64,000 bases of DNA from an uncultured candidatus Porisulfidus sp. (GTDB taxonomy: Bacteria; Pseudomonadota; Gammaproteobacteria; Poriferisulfidales; Poriferisulfidaceae), in NCBI GenBank assembly GCA_958431155.1, contig OY288106.1:905161-969160 (forward strand). Reading direction: 5' to 3'. Both the position numbers and the translations under genes were made by a program. The first letter of the stretch is position 1, and each line of letters begins with the position of its first letter. The notes under the pieces are model-generated. The model saw only the letters and a program-made list of their open reading frames with translations. It searched no databases and had not been told where the DNA came from. This document shows, one piece after another, positions 19,226-26,875 of the stretch.

Positions 19226-19424
19226 AGGCGATAAGGCCCGAATTTGTTGCCAAGTAGGAAAAGTTCGCTGTCAGGTCATTTTACCCGATAGAGTATTACG
19301 CCAAGATTTATTTACCGTAGATGATTCTTGGGCCTTAGAAGGGTTTTAGGGCTTCTGCCCGCGGTTAAAAAAACAGGCGCCCCGAAGGGCGCCTGCTTGT
19401 TTGGGGTGCCTTAGCTAGACTGAA
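19226..19424. other. Spacer between slyD-like gene and porin 1
   Basis: About 200 bases between the divergent-facing ends. The porin 1 terminator occupies 19367-19395. The remaining 19226-19366 should hold the promoter of the slyD-acylase unit, but no clear -35/-10 pair was recognised. Confidence 0.4.
19367..19395 (-). terminator. Intrinsic terminator of porin 1
   Basis: On the minus strand, CAGGCGCCC-TTCG-GGGCGCCTG forms a perfect 9-bp stem followed by seven T residues (19367-19373). The identical hairpin follows porin 2 at 26847-26875, so the terminator is part of the duplicated unit. Confidence 0.93.
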
Positions 19425-19760
19425 TCAGTCGAACCAGTGCACGATACCCACTGCGAACATCTCGATCTCCGCACCGGGTGAACCCAGTCCGGTACCGGAG
19501 ATGCCCTGACCGTAGGTTCCGTTGTCGTCGTTGTCGACTTCGGAGTAGGTCAGACGCAGTTCCGTACCGGCCGGCATGGTGTAGAACAGGCCTACGTTCC
19601 ATGCGTCAGCTGCGGTTTCGTCCCAGTCGCCCGAGCAGGATCCGCAGGAGACCTCGAGGTCATCCGCATCCATGTAGGAGAAGCGGAAGTCCACGGGACC
19701 GCCGAACTTGATCTTGCCGGATACCATCCAGGCGTCACGCTCGATCTTGACGTTCTGGCC
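19367..19760 (-). repeat. C-terminal arm of porin inverted repeat, copy 1
   Basis: The last 111 codons of porin 1 plus its terminator. The encoded residues are identical to those of porin 2 (26482-26875), and I count about seven base differences in the coding part, all synonymous. Homology stops at the end of the T-run. The two copies are in opposite orientation about 6.7 kb apart. Confidence 0.9.
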
Positions 19761-21302
19761 TGCGGTGGGAGGCATATACGTGTCTACCGCGTCCTGGTGC
19801 GCTTTCATGGCAGCAGTATTGGCTATCGGGAGAGCCAAATCAACCGCCGCAGATCTTAGTGCGTCGTATTTTGCTACGAACTCCAATTCTGCAGCACTCG
19901 CACCCTCGTCAGTACCAGTAGTCTCCGGGTCATCCATCTTCATCCTGAAGTACTCTGCGGCAGCGCCCATTTCCATGAGATAGCTGCCTAGAGCATTTTG
20001 GACTTCATCCATATCGGGATCCTCATCCGCAAGCATATTCGTACCTGCGTTGAGGAAAGTAGGCGTGGGAGCCGCTTGCGAAGTCTCTGTTCCACCCGTA
20101 CCGGGCACTCCATTTGCATTAACAATACCGAAGTGCGTAGCTGATTCGTCCACATCTGTAGTAGACGTATCGTCCGCTATGACACGCTTAAAAACGGTTT
20201 CTGCTGCGCTAGCACCGGTGCCTAGAATGCTTCTGAAAAGCCCATAGGTTTTCTGGTTTTGGACCTGCATCTCTGAGAGATCGCCAGCCATAAGTGCCTC
20301 AAAGTCTCCCGGAGGAGCGTCCTCCATGCCCGCCATCAGGTTGCCGGATGTACCGAAGTTCGAATATCCGAACGCAGCCATCGCCTTCTCGACGCTGGAC
20401 ACGTCGTTGAACTCGTACTCCAGGTCTTCCCACATGGCCGAGATCTGAACGCTCATGCCGTCACCCATATCCATGATGTAGCGGCCTGCAACACGGAAAC
20501 TTTCCGCATCTGAACTGTCCATTTCGCCAACAGAAACTGCGGTCCAGTCCTCATGGTCCTGCCAGGTCACCGCCAGCCACAGCGGGCCGTTGGTGTACGC
20601 CAGGCTGCTTGAACGGATTACCGGATCGATATCTCCACAATGTGAAATACAATTTCCATCAGCGTCGGTCATGCGACGCGGGCTGTTGCCTTCGTCACGA
20701 TTGCCAGCGGTCCATGCGAAGCGGAACACGAAACCGTTCCAGTTCGGAGACCAGTACTGGATGATGTTCTCCTGACGACGGTTGAAGCCCGTGTCATAGC
20801 CTCCGCCCGCGTAGTTGAACTCAGCTCCACTGAAATCGGTGCCCGGCCCCGAGCCCGAGGCCTGGATGTCGAAGTCACCGGTGTTGTAAAAGATGGTGTG
20901 GGCGCCGACCGAACCCATGATGCTGGTATGCGAATCCGCACCGGCATCGTAGAACGGGTCGACCCACTGTGCTACGCCCTCGTTGTAGGGCAGCAGCCAG
21001 GTGGCAAGCATAATCTCACCCATCTGGGGATGAGACAAACCAATCTTGGAATTACGGTTACACCAGCCGGTGCCGCCCGCAAAGTGGTTAAAGTAGGTGA
21101 ACTGCTCGCATCGCACGTTGACCATGATGCCGTCCATGCCGGTGTCAACGCTGGCTGTGAAGCCAATGTTGCCGGCATTAGAACTTATCCGGTCGAAGCT
21201 GCGTCCACCATCTATATCCACAAAATCCCAGGAATGATTCTGCCATCCATAGATATTCCATGTCTCGGCTTGCGCCGCAAACGGCGCGACGGCCAGAGCC
21301 AT
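19425..21302 (-). pseudogene. Porin 1: open frame without normal start (silent copy candidate)
   Basis: Outer-membrane beta-barrel porin homologous to porin 2 (25033-26817). The frame is open for 625 codons. It shares about 315 N-terminal residues (mature start AETWNIYGWQNHSW) and an identical 111-residue C-terminus, but the central 196 residues (19761-20348) are unrelated. Where porin 2 has ATGAGAAAACC, porin 1 reads ATACC: the ATG and the basic MRKPFLIA part of the signal peptide are lost. The first in-frame ATG (21302) has no Shine-Dalgarno and would give a signal peptide without positive charges. A stop codon lies 8 codons upstream. It is probably not expressed in this configuration, yet it carries no internal stop, so selection or recent exchange is implied. 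Confidence 0.8.
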
Positions 21303-21325
21303 GGCGATTAGAAATGGTATTTTTT
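20349..21325 (-). repeat. N-terminal arm of porin inverted repeat, copy 1
   Basis: About 0.95 kb matching 25033-25977 in inverted orientation. The protein sequences differ at scattered positions only (for example WDF/WEF, FTYFN/FMYLN) until FGYSNFGT, after which similarity ends abruptly. On the 5' side similarity ends at the start codon; the sequences further upstream are unrelated. Confidence 0.88.
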
Positions 21326-21411
21326 ACTTTCGACAACTCTGAAAACCCTTCGGCAAAGGCCTACCGATCCCGTAAACTGAGGCTCCAGCCGGGATAGTCT
21401 GCTGTCGCTTC

Positions 21412-22314
21412 ATGTCTGACTCCACGCATCTTTTAAAGTTCGGCCATGCCCGGTTGAACGGGCGCCAAATTTCCGAATTGCTGGGATTATGCAGGGGCCT
21501 GATCGCTGACGGGAAGATCGTCCAAAGCGAAGCAGAGTCGCTTTACGCCTGGCTAATAGACCAAGAAGGAATGGGGCACCCTCTCGTAGAAACCCTGCGA
21601 ACTCAAGTTGGACAAATGCTCGAAGACGAAGTGCTGGACACTGGTGAAAGTGAGGAATTGATGTGGCTGGTGCAGAGCCTTATCGACAACCGCCTGGAAA
21701 CAGAAGTTCCTCTAAGTCGTAATGGTCTGCCAATCCACAATCTGGACGACTACCAGATTTCCGCGTTGCTTGGATTGTGCCGGGGTTTGATCGCGGATGG
21801 AAAAGTCGACCGGAACGAAGCGGATATGCTTCACATATGGTTAACGGCTCATAAAGAGACGATTCACAACCCGGTAATGTTGGCATTTCGAAACAAATTA
21901 AGTACTTTTATGGACAAAAACCCTGAAGATGCAGACAATAATGTGCAATTATTGCAGTTACTGAGCGGATTGATCGGTGGAAAAACGGAGGTCGGGGAAT
22001 GCCTCCGCGCAACGATGCTGTGGCTGGATGACCCACCACCAGAGGTTGTGTTCGAGGGTCGGAAATTCTGCCTGACTGGCAAATTCTCCTGCGGCAAGCG
22101 CATCCAATGCGAGGATAAGGTTCGAGCCCGCGGGGGAGCCTGCCAATCGTCTCCGAACAAAGCAACGGATTATTTGGTTATCGGATCCTATGCGGAAAAA
22201 ACCTGGATACAGTCCGCATACGGGCGCAAAATCGAGAAAACCGTGGAGTTGCGTGCTGGCGGATCACCCATCCGGATTATCTCCGAGGAACATTGGCTAG
22301 CGAGCATGGTGTAG
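21412..22314 (+). CDS. BRCT-domain protein with two TerB-like repeats
   Basis: A 300-residue protein of unknown role. Two copies of a helical unit share GLCRGLIADGK (about residues 26-36 and 122-132), each preceded by QIS-LL and followed by acidic helices, resembling TerB/tellurite-resistance-type helical domains. The C-terminus (about 215-300) is a BRCT domain with VFEGRKFCLTGKFSCGKR, KVRARGGACQSS and TDYLVIGSYAEKTW, as at the end of DNA ligase. BRCT domains bind phosphoproteins or DNA ends, so a DNA-associated role is possible. It lies between the two porins, with its promoter in the 86 bases next to the damaged porin 1 start. Confidence 0.75.
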   Translation: MSDSTHLLKFGHARLNGRQISELLGLCRGLIADGKIVQSEAESLYAWLIDQEGMGHPLVETLRTQVGQMLEDEVLDTGESEELMWLVQSLIDNRLETEVPLSRNGLPIHNLDDYQISALLGLCRGLIADGKVDRNEADMLHIWLTAHKETIHNPVMLAFRNKLSTFMDKNPEDADNNVQLLQLLSGLIGGKTEVGECLRATMLWLDDPPPEVVFEGRKFCLTGKFSCGKRIQCEDKVRARGGACQSSPNKATDYLVIGSYAEKTWIQSAYGRKIEKTVELRAGGSPIRIISEEHWLASMV

Positions 22315-22331
22315 CCGGCCTCTTGCGGCAA

Positions 22332-22557
22332 CCGGCTGCAGAGATCAGGATACCTCAATCTTTTGCAACAGCAGACCATCAAAGAATCTCGGGCTGGTTA
22401 CCGATACGGCCTGTAAAAATGTCGCGGAGCCAAGCCTTTGTCTAATTGCATGGATCACGACGCCAGACATGCCAACTTAGGCATGAGCGACTTCGCGCCG
22501 ATGTAGAAATGCCAAGGGTTCTCCGACAGACTGAAGCATCCTGATCTCTGCAGCCGG
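22332..22557. repeat. 226-base element bounded by perfect 20-base inverted repeats
   Basis: CCGGCTGCAGAGATCAGGAT (22332-22351) recurs as its exact reverse complement at 22538-22557, with 186 bases between. The interior has no gene but includes a smaller hairpin (CATGCC-N6-GGCATG). No target-site duplication is visible. It fills the space between the BRCT gene and the recombinase stop. It may be a miniature element, a recombination site pair or a structured RNA. Confidence 0.7.
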
Positions 22558-22572
22558 ACGTTCGATCAAGGG

Positions 22573-23745
22573 CTAGACCTCCTGCACTATGCGATTGATT
22601 CGGGTTTTCTCATGGCAGACGATATCCCAGACGAACCCAGTCAATTCACGGGCGATCGCGACGCAAACCACCTTTTGATTCTTCCCCGCCGTGATTAGTT
22701 TCCGATACCGCCCGCACAGCCGTTTTTGTGCCTTCCAAGCGATTGCCTGAGCATAGGCGGAGGCGCCTTCCGCCTTCCGATTCATGTAGGCGGTCTGACG
22801 TGCCGGGAAGCGGTAGCACCAGGCCGACTCGACCAGCACCTGCCGAGCATGACGGTTTCCCGCTTGCGTGACACCACCGGTGCGATGATGAGGTCCGGAA
22901 CTGTAGACGCAAGGCACTAATCCCAAGTAACCCATCAGCTGATTGGGGGAATTAAACCGACTGATGTCGCCCAGCTCGGACAGCAGTGTGACAGCGGACA
23001 GCTGATCGAACCCGCGCAGTGCTATCAGACTGTTGGCCAGAGGCGCCCAGGACCAGTTCTGCAGGGCTTGATTCAGTTTTTGATCCAGGTCGATCATCCG
23101 CGAGGATGACAGGCGAACGGCCGCGATGTATTCGTCTCGGACTTCAGTCTGAGATCCATACGGAAAATCAAGACTCTCCAACCATTCGAGGTGTTTTTGC
23201 GTCCAGCGTTTCCGGTTGGTCGGCCAATGATGTCCATGACGCAGAACAAAGGCATTGAGCTGCTGGCGCAGTTTTTGCTGCTGCGCCTTGAAATCTGCGC
23301 GGCAGCGGCATAGATCTCGAACCGCCTCTTGTTCCCGGTCCGGCACCCAAACCTCTATCAACTCTCCGGCACGCAACAGTCGTGCCAGACGTAACGCATC
23401 CCTGCGGTCCGTCTTGATCTTTTCATTGCGTGGAGGGACTACAACCTGGCAATCCATGCCCATGGCCGTCAGGTTCTGGTACAGAGTGTACCCGCAAGGG
23501 CCGGCCTCGTAGCAAAGTAGAAAAGCCTTTTTCTCCAAATACAGGCAGTCCACGAGCTTGGTGACTGCTTTCTTTGTATGCGGAATCGTACCGAGGGACT
23601 TCGGGGCTTCCCGGCCCGCATAGGCAACCGCAACAGCAATACTGTCCTTGTGGACATCCAGTCCAACATAACCCGCATACGGCCTGGAGAGAACCGAGTC
23701 GTTGGCAGACGTGCTCCGTGTTGCTTCAGAAGTTTGTTCTTTCAT
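22573..23745 (-). CDS. IS110/Piv-family DEDD recombinase (transposase)
   Basis: Site-specific recombinase of the IS110 family, which includes the Piv invertase of Moraxella; several IS110 elements are directed by a bridge RNA. The start ATG 23745 (MKEQTSEATR) follows AGGAGAG, giving 390 residues. The RuvC-like N-terminal part shows YVGLDVHKDSIAVAV, CYEAGPCGYTLY and KTDRRDALRLARLL, the DEDD residues. The C-terminal Transposase_20 part has LIALRGFDQLSAVTLLSELG, LGLVPCVYSSG and GNRHARQVLVESAW. The frame is intact. It sits between two inverted porin genes. Element ends are not defined here. Confidence 0.92.
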   Translation of the reverse strand: MKEQTSEATRSTSANDSVLSRPYAGYVGLDVHKDSIAVAVAYAGREAPKSLGTIPHTKKAVTKLVDCLYLEKKAFLLCYEAGPCGYTLYQNLTAMGMDCQVVVPPRNEKIKTDRRDALRLARLLRAGELIEVWVPDREQEAVRDLCRCRADFKAQQQKLRQQLNAFVLRHGHHWPTNRKRWTQKHLEWLESLDFPYGSQTEVRDEYIAAVRLSSSRMIDLDQKLNQALQNWSWAPLANSLIALRGFDQLSAVTLLSELGDISRFNSPNQLMGYLGLVPCVYSSGPHHRTGGVTQAGNRHARQVLVESAWCYRFPARQTAYMNRKAEGASAYAQAIAWKAQKRLCGRYRKLITAGKNQKVVCVAIARELTGFVWDIVCHEKTRINRIVQEV

Positions 23746-24019
23746 TTGATTGTCTCTCCTTGAAGTCAAGAGTTGTAAGGGGTAAACACCGCGGATGCAT
23801 CCGAGTGCAACGGTGCGGGCTATGATGAGAACCAGTTTTCACGGAACGTTATTATTGTCTCGGTTCATGCCCCGCATATCGTTGGTCTTGATTTGAGGGG
23901 AGACAGTTCAGGGGGGATGGGGGTACGAATCGGTGCTTGTCCAATCCTTGCACTCGCTGATTGCAATCCAAATCGACTAGCCGTGTGATCTCGTCTGAAT
24001 TTTCGTCCAGGAGATGATG
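23746..24019 (-). other. Non-coding region upstream of IS110-type recombinase (bridge-RNA candidate)
   Basis: About 270 bases without a gene. It contains a perfect 12-base palindrome, CGGATGCATCCG (23792-23803), enclosed by CACCG (23787-23791) and CGGTG, which could fold into a longer hairpin. In the IS110 subgroup the guide (bridge) RNA is encoded upstream of the recombinase, in the IS1111 subgroup downstream. The location and structure potential fit, but no loop-target match was checked. The Shine-Dalgarno of the next gene is AGGAG at 24009-24013. Confidence 0.35.
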
Positions 24020-24262
24020 ATGGAAATGATTGGAGTTTGTGAGGCCAAAACATATTTGCCTAAATTGCTTGATCGCGTGGCACGGGGAGAGAATCTGGCC
24101 ATTACAAGGCATGGCAAACCTGTTGCGAAACTGGTGCCTGTGACCACAGATCGGGAGCAGGCGAAGGAAACACTTGGCCAGATCGCCGAACTCCGCCGGC
24201 ATGTCAAACTAGTGCCGCTGGCGGAACTGATGGCTACAGTTCACGAAAGGCACCGCTGTTGA
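24020..24262 (+). CDS. Phd/YefM-type antitoxin
   Basis: DNA-binding antitoxin of the Phd/YefM fold, 80 residues from ATG 24020 (spaced 6 bases from AGGAG; ATG 24014 and 24017 are too close). The sequence IGVCEAKTYLPKLLDRVARG then NLAITRHGKPVAKLVPV is the canonical prevent-host-death domain. The C-terminal half (EQAKETLGQIAELRRHVKL) should bind the toxin. The overlapping downstream PIN toxin is frameshifted, so this antitoxin now has no full-length partner at the locus. Confidence 0.88.
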   Translation: MEMIGVCEAKTYLPKLLDRVARGENLAITRHGKPVAKLVPVTTDREQAKETLGQIAELRRHVKLVPLAELMATVHERHRC

Positions 24263-24664
24263 TCGTCGCAGACCATTCCGTATTTCTGGCTTGGTGCATG
24301 GGGGATGAGGGAGATCTTTCGGGCTAGAGGCAATGCCGCACGTTTCCGGGGAAGGCGGGGTTGTGCCGCACATCTGGTGGTATGAATTTCGTAATGCCCT
24401 ACTGATGAACGAGCGGCGTGGACGGATCTCTTCGCAGCAGGTCGCGAAAACCTTAGCAGCCAGCTCTGCTCTAAAAATCGAGATTGACGAGAGTCATGAC
24501 GAATTGCAGATTCTGGGTTTCTGCCGCGGTTTGATCTGACCGTCTACGATGCCGCGTATTTGGAAGTAGCTTTCCGACGCAGCCTGCCTCTGGCGACGCT
24601 TGATCACCAGCTACGCAAGGCCGCAGACGTGATTGGAATTGCTACGGTTCACCGACAAGACTGA
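24259..24664 (+). pseudogene. PIN-domain toxin, broken by two frameshifts
   Basis: VapC-type RNase fragments lie in three successive frames. The first begins at TTG 24259 overlapping the antitoxin stop (LIVADHSVFLAWCMGDEGDL) and stops near 24326. The second runs about 24327-24539 (VPHIWWYEFRNALLMNERRG). The third ends at 24664 (LTVYDAAYLEVAFRRSLPLA then TLDHQLRKAADVIG). All four PIN acidic positions (VAD, YEF, YDA, TLD) are still present, so inactivation appears recent, or one of the shifts is a sequencing error. It was probably a functional phd-vapC pair. Confidence 0.8.
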
Positions 24665-25032
24665 AGTGGCCGAAAGGTTGTCGAGAAACCCGGGCCACCA
24701 AAACCCGCAGGCGAACCTACAACGGGCAGGTATACGGCCTTACCACGACGACCGAAAAAGCAGGCATTAATATTTTCTTACATATCAATGTTTTATCAAT
24801 CGAGGAAAATTTTTGAAGTAGATATTGCGTGACGTTGTTTTTTATTAACGAGAGGATTTGAATTACTGATTTCTCGCTGATTTTCTTGAGTTGCAAAAAA
24901 ACAACACCAAGAAAATTTGACAATTCCTTTAAGGCTATAGACAATTCGCAATTGAGTATGGCAGTTTTGCCAGATTCCCGTGGGGCATGATCACCTCGCG
25001 GTACTACTAATATTTTTAGGAGTCCTAAAAAA
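24665..25032. other. AT-rich regulatory spacer upstream of porin 2
   Basis: 368 bases. 24665-24879 holds nothing recognisable beyond AT-rich sequence. A 113-codon minus-strand frame at 24717-25058 has no family features and overlaps the porin 2 start, so it is not called. 24880-24945 holds a hairpin and promoter (separate entry). TGGCA-GTTT-TGCCA near 24959 is a small inverted repeat in the leader. AGGAG at 25018-25022 is the porin Shine-Dalgarno. Confidence 0.6.
24880..24945 (+). promoter_or_regulatory. Porin 2 promoter with adjacent hairpin/operator
   Basis: TTGACA (24917-24922), a 17-base spacer and GACAAT (24940-24945) form a plausible sigma-70 promoter with a leader of about 80 bases. 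Directly upstream is the inverted repeat ATTTTCTTG (24880-24888) / CAAGAAAAT (24908-24916). The pairing can extend inward through GTTG/CAAC. It abuts the -35 element, where a regulator of porin expression could bind. This promoter lies inside the segment between the inverted porin arms. Confidence 0.55.
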
Positions 25033-25977
25033 ATGAGAAAACCATTTCTAATTGCCATGGCTCTGGCCGTCGCGCCATTTGCGGCGCAAGCCGAGACATG
25101 GAATATCTATGGATGGCAGAATCATTCTTGGGAGTTTGTGGATATTGACGGCGGACGCAGTTTCGACCGAATCCAGTCCAACGCCGGCAACATTGGCTTC
25201 GCGGCCAGCGTCGACACCGGCATGGACGGCATCATGGTCAATGTCCGATGCGAGCAGTTCATGTACTTGAACCACTTCGCGGGCGGCACCGGCTGGTGCA
25301 ACCGTAACTCCAAGATTGGTTTGTCTCATCCGATGATGGGTGAGATCATGTTTGCCACCTGGCTGCTGCCCTACAACGAGGGCGTGGCGCAGTGGGTCGA
25401 CCCGTTCTACGATGCCGGTGCGGATTCGCATACCAGCATCATGGGGTCGGTCGGCGCACACACCATCTTCTACAACACTGGTGACTTCGACTTTCAGGCA
25501 TCTGCTTCGGGGCCGGGCACCGGCTTTAGTGGGGCTGAGTTCAACTACGCGGGTGGAGGCTACGACACGGGCTTCAACCGTCGTCAGGAGAATATCATCC
25601 AGTACTGGTCCCCGAACTGGAACGGTTTCGTGTTCCGCTTCGCATGGACTGCTGGTTTTCGTGACGAGACAGCTGCGCCTACTGGCGGTGGCGACATCGA
25701 TCCGGTAATCCGTTCAAGCAGCCTGGCCTACACCAACGGCCCGCTGTGGCTGGCGGTGACTTGGCAGGATCATGAGGACTGGACTGCGGCTTCCGTGGGC
25801 CAGATGAACAGTTCGGACGCGGAGAGTTTCCGTGTTGCAGGTCGCTACATCATGGATATGGGTGACGGCATGAGCGTTCAGATCTCGGCCATGTGGGAAG
25901 ACTTGGAGTACGAGTTCAACGGCGTGACCAACGTTGATGCGGCTATGTCTGCATTCGGGTATTCCAACTTTGGTACC
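25033..25977 (+). repeat. N-terminal arm of porin inverted repeat, copy 2
   Basis: Codons 1 to about 315 of porin 2, matching 20349-21325 on the opposite strand. This copy carries the intact ATG and signal peptide that copy 1 lacks. Confidence 0.88.
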
Positions 25978-26817
25978 TACGACCTGCTAGACAGTGCCGG
26001 CAGTGTCATCGGAATGACTCCGGAGATGCCAGGCACTCCATCTATGCAGGTACCGGTCGACCAAGATGATATCGATGCTGAGAAGACCTATGACCTGATT
26101 CTGAGATTGTTTCCTGACTGCTTCGATGGAGCCGATGCAAGTTCGGATCAGTGTCCGGGATCCTTTGATGCGGTACTTGGATACACAACACCTACTACAG
26201 TCGAGGACTTGCCTTTGACTGAAGAGGATGAGTCTCTAACCTCTACCCCAGGCAACGGCGGCACGAGTATCGCTGATGAGGATGGTACCGACCTAGCTAC
26301 CGCTGTGGCGGCACTGAAAGCTTTAGCCGAGGCCGACACCCCGGACGCCAATGATGTTTACCAGTACAACACGCTGGTTAACGCGGCTAGAATGGCTGCT
26401 GAAGAAACAGCTGGGATGACGGATGCCGTGCCGGATACGCCAGCAGTCAGTATGGCTGACAACAGAGCTATGATGACTATGGGCCAGAACGTCAAGATCG
26501 AGCGTGACGCCTGGATGGTGTCCGGCAAGATCAAGTTCGGCGGTCCCGTGGACTTCCGCTTCTCCTACATGGATGCGGATGACCTTGAGGTCTCCTGCGG
26601 ATCCTGCTCGGGCGACTGGGACGAAACCGCTGCTGACGCATGGAACGTAGGCCTGTTCTACACCATGCCAGCCGGCACGGAACTGCGTCTGACCTACTCC
26701 GAAGTCGACAACGACGACAACGGCACCTACGGTCAGGGCATCTCCGGTACCGGACTGGGTTCACCCGGTGCGGAGATCGAGATGTTCGCAGTGGGTATCG
26801 TGCACTGGTTTGACTGA
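25033..26817 (+). CDS. Porin 2: outer-membrane porin with variable central segment
   Basis: Predicted outer-membrane beta-barrel channel. The 594-residue precursor begins MRKPFLIAMALAVAPFAAQA, a complete Sec signal peptide cleaved before ETWN. Alternating hydrophobic strands follow (NGFVFRFAW, PLWLAVTW, SVQISAMW). Residues from about 316 to 483 (25978-26481) are acidic, low in barrel pattern and unrelated to the same region of porin 1. The last 111 residues are identical to porin 1. The C-terminus HWFD is unusual because most porins end in an aromatic residue. The strongly acidic surface composition would suit a saline habitat. It has its own promoter, an AGGAG Shine-Dalgarno and a strong terminator. 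Confidence 0.85.
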   Translation: MRKPFLIAMALAVAPFAAQAETWNIYGWQNHSWEFVDIDGGRSFDRIQSNAGNIGFAASVDTGMDGIMVNVRCEQFMYLNHFAGGTGWCNRNSKIGLSHPMMGEIMFATWLLPYNEGVAQWVDPFYDAGADSHTSIMGSVGAHTIFYNTGDFDFQASASGPGTGFSGAEFNYAGGGYDTGFNRRQENIIQYWSPNWNGFVFRFAWTAGFRDETAAPTGGGDIDPVIRSSSLAYTNGPLWLAVTWQDHEDWTAASVGQMNSSDAESFRVAGRYIMDMGDGMSVQISAMWEDLEYEFNGVTNVDAAMSAFGYSNFGTYDLLDSAGSVIGMTPEMPGTPSMQVPVDQDDIDAEKTYDLILRLFPDCFDGADASSDQCPGSFDAVLGYTTPTTVEDLPLTEEDESLTSTPGNGGTSIADEDGTDLATAVAALKALAEADTPDANDVYQYNTLVNAARMAAEETAGMTDAVPDTPAVSMADNRAMMTMGQNVKIERDAWMVSGKIKFGGPVDFRFSYMDADDLEVSCGSCSGDWDETAADAWNVGLFYTMPAGTELRLTYSEVDNDDNGTYGQGISGTGLGSPGAEIEMFAVGIVHWFD

Positions 26818-26875
26818 TTCAGTCTAGCTAAGGCACACCAAACAAGCAGGCGCCCTTCGGGGCGCCTGTTTTTTT
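26482..26875 (+). repeat. C-terminal arm of porin inverted repeat, copy 2
   Basis: Last 111 codons of porin 2 and its terminator, matching 19367-19760 in inverted orientation. The 3' untranslated sequence GATTCAGTCTAGCTAAGG is shared too. Similarity stops after the T-run. Confidence 0.9.
26847..26875 (+). terminator. Intrinsic terminator of porin 2
   Basis: CAGGCGCCC-TTCG-GGGCGCCTG hairpin (26847-26868) followed by seven T residues. It is the same hairpin as after porin 1. Confidence 0.94.

Follow-up and report, generated by a model that had tools for sequence, protein, structure and literature searches.

A porin locus with one expression site, start-less copies and a candidate RNA-guided IS110-family recombinase in an uncultured candidatus Porisulfidus

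In the sap S-layer switch of Campylobacter fetus, a single promoter lies on an invertible segment and serves promoterless homologues with a common 5' region in a RecA-driven process; in the vsa system of Mycoplasma pulmonis, silent copies are joined to one expression site at a short box near the signal peptide by a tyrosine recombinase; and in Moraxella, Piv inverts a pilin switch. Here we describe a locus that can be compared with all three, found in 64,000 nucleotides of DNA (hereafter the window) from an uncultured candidatus Porisulfidus sp. (assembly GCA_958431155.1, contig OY288106.1, positions 905,161 to 969,160), at which two porin genes enclose the gene of an IS110-family recombinase and a candidate guide RNA. 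We think it probable, from the sequence evidence set out below, that this is a system of surface-porin variation, with one expression site, start-less porin bodies, and a recombinase and guide RNA that would invert the segment between two like sites. The locus resembles sap in its single invertible promoter and its promoterless repertoire with a shared 5' region, and vsa in having one expression site with silent copies joined near the signal peptide. It differs from sap in that a resident RNA-guided recombinase is proposed, and from vsa in that the protein is a porin and not a lipoprotein, the recombinase is of the IS110 family and not a tyrosine recombinase, and a guide RNA is proposed. As with Piv (named in PMC11187229), a relative of the IS110 family stands at an inverting surface-protein locus, but the protein is a porin instead of a pilin and a guide RNA is again part of the proposal.

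The closest described recombinases are those of the IS110 and IS1111 insertion sequences (IS), for example IS621 and ISCro4, which are directed by a bridge RNA (seekRNA) and with which the recombinase of the window has in common a DEDD domain, a PF02371 domain and a putative CT core (PMC11208160, PMC11187229, PMC11208158). A DEDD domain and a conserved serine are described for IS110 recombinases (PMC11187229, PMC11208160). The left target guide of IS621 pairs with the bottom strand on the left side of the target, its right target guide pairs with the top strand on the right side, and the core is part of both guides (PMC11208160), and the synapse probably draws its loops from two different RNA molecules (PMC11208158). 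The candidate RNA described here is likewise a non-coding RNA beside the recombinase gene, in which the left strand of a loop equals the top-left of the target and the right strand the complement of its top-right, with the same guide order and with the core in both guide strands; its position 3' of the gene is the one found in IS1111 and in some elements of IS110. Unlike IS621 and ISCro4, which are mobile and have ends and a donor loop, the present locus has no recognised ends and no conserved donor motif, and its sites flank a host gene switch on either end. The protein is of about 390 amino acids, compared to 315-330 for the IS492/IS621/Piv branch (PMC11187229). Bridge RNAs occur in mobile elements and in engineered inversions (PMC11208160), RNA-guided TldR proteins are reported to control flagellin (PMC13418256), and an Eggerthella preprint on megabase inversions cites bridge recombinases as tools made by engineering. 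In the open-licence PMC literature, a scope that excludes the bioRxiv collection and most subscription papers, no account of a natural RNA-guided phase-variation invertase was found.

The two porin genes of the window face away from each other, both have open frames and both match the Pfam family Porin_4. Porin 2 (25033-26817, plus strand) is the copy with a start, and its promoter, leader and Shine-Dalgarno region (24917-25032, plus strand; by eye TTGACA-17-GACAAT and AGGAGTCCTAAAAAA), of which a similar leader is found in genomes G002, G003 and G004, comprises a sigma-70-like promoter at 24917-24945, read by eye and not from a promoter scan, and a strong Shine-Dalgarno sequence (AGGAG at 25018-25022) ahead of the ATG at 25033. 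Promoter, Shine-Dalgarno sequence, ATG and the first codons, MRKPFLI, are together called the expression site. At the homologous place the body of porin 1 (19425-21314, minus strand), which is open from TTTCTAAT to its stop, is preceded by an in-frame stop and has neither an ATG nor a Shine-Dalgarno sequence (TAA AAA ATA CCA TTT CTA). A repeat comparison of the window gave two inverted matches between the N-terminal arms, of 654 nt at 90% (20692-21345/25014-25667) and 294 nt at 89% (20345-20638/25688-25981), and one of 394 nt at 98% between the C-terminal arms with their terminators (19367-19760, minus strand, for porin 1 and 26482-26875, plus strand, for porin 2); it found no direct repeats. 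Between the porins lie a BRCT gene, the IS110-type recombinase gene (22573-23745 from its likely ATG, minus strand) and a phd antitoxin gene. The genome, a single contig of 1.59 Mb, has two porin copies (E <= 0.001) and one copy of the recombinase. An original prediction made on this DNA had described the two divergent-centred porins with common inverted arms, the promoter, Shine-Dalgarno sequence and ATG at porin 2 only, and a DEDD recombinase of IS110 type inside the segment, and each of these was borne out; its description of the arms as near-identical holds for the C-terminal arms plus terminators and was generous for the N-terminal ones. The layout is not a product of chance, because it recurs in relatives. 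An AlphaFold model of the porin, built with 12 sequences, was poor (predicted local distance difference test, pLDDT, 39.9) and could not be used for placing the variable centre.

Porins were searched for in 39 genomes, that of the window included, and matches were obtained in 17, spread over three genera. The named records with a porin include 'Candidatus Porisulfidus sp. TsSOB', which has a sponge in its title, and several metagenome-assembled genomes (MAGs), and going by these relatives the window organism is presumably a sponge symbiont and a sulfur oxidiser. A single exact occurrence of the expression-site pattern was obtained in each of G000, G002, G003 and G004, four of the six genomes of the genus, and no genome has more than one; the reversed pattern, used as a control, was absent from all nine genomes searched. 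At zero mismatches the pattern was not found in G001, G005, G006, G007 and G008, and the assemblies of G001 (30 contigs) and G005 (210 contigs) may miss it. The 25 porin 5' ends that were examined comprise the four expression sites, 17 start-less copies, all from this genus or from two contigs binned elsewhere, and four ends that belong to other families of the order. Between the site and the stop before it, an in-frame ATG is absent from all 17 start-less copies, and some have an internal ATG at codon 9; an 18th start-less copy lies at a contig end in G001. There is thus a single promoter and start, together with silent homologues that carry its 5' end. The two contigs binned elsewhere (L057 and L059) are switch contigs placed in MAGs titled Rhodothermales and Rhodobacter, and are probably misbinned. 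In another family of the order (L047, contig C12 of G007) two porins lie tail to tail, one of them with a degraded start, and G007 has no IS110 match at E <= 1e-30.

These copies might also be read as a duplicated porin family in which no switching takes place now, with one live gene, dying copies and slow rearrangement between species. The window contig is in one orientation and one start-less copy in G003 is degenerate, reading GTTTCTAAT, both of which suit such a history; however, all 12 complete porin bodies available, nine of them start-less, are open from TTTCTAAT to the stop without internal stops, and an expressed centre in one species may be nearest to a silent centre in another, as described below, and we regard this explanation as improbable. 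The expectation of the original prediction, that the cell expresses one porin or the other, is refined by the relatives, which have a repertoire of start-less copies and not one alternative.

Both the orientation of the segment and the variable centres change between species. The window reads FKBP, silent body, BRCT, IS110, expressed body, IspB, and G002 reads FKBP, expressed body, IS110, BRCT, silent body, IspB, so that the block is inverted against both flanks. The expressed body of G003 lies beside IspB, matching the window, and of the three genomes that could be resolved two are therefore alike and one is inverted. The centres keep neither to one locus nor to one state, expressed or silent: the centre closest to the expressed one of G003 is silent and MoxR-linked in G002 (103/169), and those closest to the expressed one of the window are silent centres of G003, in a comparison that left out copy S_G1_a and in which one G003 centre is partial. 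The centre of E_G0 scores 210 against the expressed centre of G002 and 177 against the IspB-linked silent one, and N-arm windows compared between G000 and G002 point both ways, such that neither arms nor centres place the crossover. The original prediction had named fixed orientation and fixed centres in relatives as the outcome that would speak against it, and this is not what was found, as G002 is inverted with respect to the window and centres change locus and state. Its promoter-inversion reading is supported at the level of species, with the amendment that the crossover may take place in a site of 13 bp, located where the N arms begin on their 5' side, which the RNA of the recombinase appears to specify. 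A separate contig of 13.8 kb in G004 (L042, contig C87) has an N arm at both ends, giving a would-be invertible segment of about 13.3 kb, and carries three Phd-like matches.

An inversion between species could equally come from a RecA crossover in the N or the C arms, of which only the N-arm kind would switch expression, and this leads to the most serious alternative, in which the switching is the work of RecA, through inversion and gene conversion between the long arms, and the IS110 gene with its RNA is a resident element targeting porin signal-peptide DNA by chance. The long arms have 89-98% identity, those of the BRCT-side and expressed N ends of G003 reach 100% in several windows of 50 columns, and centres differ in locus between species, distant loci included, as this explanation would have it. 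What it leaves unexplained is, in the first place, the left boundary of the porin copies. At unrelated loci the homology of start-less copies starts abruptly at ATTTCTAAT, and upstream of it copies at different loci have no common sequence yet the same starting place, which coincides with the left half defined by the putative guide. A flank is common to the BRCT-side copies, and another, separately, to L027, L030 and L035. Across ten junctions (eight distant loci and the two window sites, out of 21, the other BRCT-side and expression-side copies and two orthologues having been dropped and the degenerate G003 copy standing outside the 21) the information is 2 bits at each position from -1 to +7, falls over the A/Y-rich positions -7 to -2, and is below 0.3 bit from -8 leftwards except for one position at 0.64.

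The 3' edge of homology between porin copies is equally sharp and lies directly after the T-run of the terminator; no shared motif beyond the terminators was seen by eye. The copies L027, L030 and L035 are one silent porin with the same flanks in G001, G002 and G003, and are bounded at either end by GCCAATATAA, which may be the scar of an insertion. For the MoxR-side silent copy a clean empty site was considered and rejected, since the window is without the copy but G002 has extra flank, of about 150 bp by eye, and this is therefore not a clean insertion.

The recombinase itself has the domains PF01548 and PF02371 and is labelled by NCBIfam NF033542 as an IS110 family RNA-guided transposase. 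Across 15 sequences there is no change at D38, E88, D121 or D124, and S291, of the conserved SG pair, is kept; these are presumably the catalytic residues. The protein thus has the DEDD RuvC-like domain and C-terminal serine of IS110 bridge recombinases. Its AlphaFold model has a pLDDT of 81.9 and a fold search placed ISCro4/IS621 closest (E 2e-11); a phmmer search of PDB sequences gave no match up to E 0.1. Homologues at E <= 1e-30 are present in all six genomes of the genus, with one copy in five and two in G004, and in none of 14 other genomes of the order and 19 from the class. The gene lies beside BRCT at a start-less N arm in five genomes of the genus and in L057 and L059, and is present in all seven loci in which BRCT adjoins an N arm; in L042 there is about 1 kb of additional DNA. 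A further partial BRCT match in G004 (L044) has no IS110 gene on its 4.1 kb contig, and the homologue of G005 is 66% identical, on a contig with no porin or BRCT match. Inverted sites and an inversion between species were observed, and the enzyme may be a site-specific invertase of the Piv/MooV type.

Were the segment still a mobile IS110-type element with cargo, inserting at porin sites, then any effect on the porins would be a by-product. Cousins of the recombinase, at 35-61% identity and some with stops, were found in 12 of 369 genomes of the class besides two of this genus, and those with a similar RNA include one that is multi-copy (five copies in G374), which would fit an element of this kind. 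However, the element ends of G374, used as queries (left end TAGACATGATGTTTTGACC, right end GGTCAAAACATATCA), had no match with up to three mismatches in six porin loci or in L079, and in the window (21300-25100) gave one right-end match, on the wrong side and inside phd; this search is blind to ends that have diverged by more than three mismatches. Neither IS ends or subterminal repeats nor movable copies were recognised, and in seven loci the switch has a single copy whose neighbours do not change, making a mobile element very improbable indeed. Retention of a single copy at the switch, the lack of recognisable IS ends and the invariance of the guides are also left unexplained by the RecA-dependent alternative. 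In one G374 copy (L095) about 298 bases of the element's RNA end are present a second time, in direct orientation.

The candidate guide RNA (22332-22557, minus strand) lies downstream of the recombinase gene and is conserved in the seven loci and in L079. It is predicted to fold into a 27-bp outer stem enclosing two arms, and RNAalifold gave 69 pairs, 15 of which have a two-sided change in at least one of the eight sequences. Fold z values for the single sequence are -7.3 for the gene-sense strand and -6.4 for the opposite strand, and because these are similar, the choice of strand rests on guide order and on the cousins; no Rfam match was obtained in 21300-25100 up to E 1. The internal loop of arm A, the place where bridge RNAs hold their target guides, has the left strand GGCATTTCTA (22504-22513, minus strand) and the right strand CAATTAGACA (22439-22448, minus strand; GCAATTAGA with the preceding G). 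The left strand includes the top-left half of the site, CATTTCTA; the right strand, taken together with the G before it and reverse-complemented, gives the right half of the expression-side site, TCTAATTGC, and the two overlap at the CT core. The candidate sites concerned are CATTTCTAATTGC at the expression side (25043-25055, plus strand, core CT 25048-25049) and CATTTCTAATCGC at the silent side (21304-21316, minus strand, core CT 21310-21311). All 20 guide-loop positions, ten in each strand, are invariant in the seven porin loci, compared to 26/55 in the upper hairpin and 22/54 in arm B; the lower stems, at 12/14 and 14/18, are likewise largely conserved. In cousin elements the left guide agreed with the real left flank at a mean of 5.0 of 8 positions, against 3.4 of 8 for mismatched pairs (best of ten offsets), and six of eight elements scored at least 5; this test left out L095-L097 of G374, with L094 masked and L080 and L090-L093 unscored. 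Sequence and predicted fold thus point to an adjacent structured RNA with a target-binding internal loop. From the donor-side motif of the cousins, GGTAACCAAYCC.CG.ATATCAG, only the first part is kept here and ATATCAG is absent, by eye, and no second loop matching a donor was found.

The evidence that this loop matches the porin sites is good but not overwhelming, and it is weighed together with the presence of a resident conserved recombinase. The sequence CATTTCTAATYGC has two copies in the 1.59 Mb genome, both at the porins, one of them being the silent-side site, and its control has none. The composite guide GCATTTCTAATTGC with up to two mismatches has eight places in the genome, among which the expression site is the only one with a single mismatch, and among all window positions, with both strands counted, the two sites take the first two ranks. 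A joint match equal to that of the expression site was reached by 4 of 5000 shuffles of arm A; taken singly, its left match has a p of 0.03 and its right match 0.006. The expression site matches 10 of the 11 non-core guide positions, which has a probability of about 5e-6 for one given site (by hand, with slots fixed by homology).

Several observations weigh on the other side. The reversed control of the composite guide gives seven places compared to eight, and the silent site is one of seven with two mismatches and at that stringency does not stand out. The joint score was reached by 8 of 5000 random 45-mers of the window, the best scoring 17 against the observed 15 (some of these 45-mers may overlap the RNA or the sites). 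The match is short, both sites mismatch the first base of the left guide, the silent site has one further mismatch, and its right half, of 6 nt, is not significant (p 0.48). Two of the eight cousin elements failed the slot test, the covariation term of RNAalifold is small (-3.2), and no part of arm B matches the porin site significantly, such that no bispecific guiding like that of IS621 was seen. The guide of G005 predicts CATTTCTAATCAC, and the only match to TTTCTAATYRY in that genome is not a porin. Finally, the base after AAT is C in all seven BRCT-side copies and in one of four expression-side copies (Fisher test about 0.02, by hand), which suggests that this base is kept with its flank, favouring a crossover further to the right. 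Frequent exchange at the core would be expected to mix this base, and a RecA crossover in the arms, for which a post-core base that tracks its flank is a point in favour, stays a serious rival, though on the whole of the evidence we consider it unlikely.

We therefore return to switching by the resident recombinase. The anatomy, its recurrence, the open silent frames, the inversion between species, the centres that change locus and the guide strands that match the junction were read from the sequences; the mechanism proposed is as follows. The IS110-family recombinase, guided by the RNA, would bind CATTTCT|AATYGC at the expression site and at the silent copy, strands would be exchanged at the CT core of both, and the 3.74 kb between the sites would invert, joining the same start to the other porin body. 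The synapse would be homotypic, each of the two like sites being bound by a target loop, because the target-loop guides are invariant and the donor-guide motif known from the cousins is not kept; as the loops of the IS621 synapse probably come from separate RNAs, it is conceivable that two target loops make up a synapse. Within the long arms, crossover by RecA or gene conversion would probably add mosaicism and reach the distant silent copies, which might alternatively be reached by the same recombinase reaction. A more specific form, on which our judgement is evenly balanced, is that this is a domesticated bridge-RNA recombinase that no longer moves itself and carries out RNA-guided, homotypic inversion and cassette joining at a surface gene of its host, its guide having co-evolved with the signal-peptide codons of the porin family. 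An IS110-type invertase and a bridge RNA are each already known, and their union, if real, would be new. If true, RNA-guided recombination would have been recruited for host gene regulation, comparable to the control of flagellin by TldR, and there would be RNA-guided phase and antigenic variation in an animal symbiont. It would offer a concrete hypothesis on the means by which a symbiont that is not in culture changes a pore to which phages and host cells may be exposed. The long-standing question of site recognition by invertases of the Piv type would become testable by a search for guides.

Two further genes lie in the segment. The Phd/YefM antitoxin gene (24014-24262, plus strand, PF02604) is followed at 24259-24664 by a PIN-like sequence that looks frameshifted by eye, and the toxin partner may be broken. 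The BRCT-domain gene beside the silent copy (21412-22314, plus strand, PF00533) is in the same place, adjoining a start-less copy, in seven loci and has apparent duplicated N-terminal repeats.

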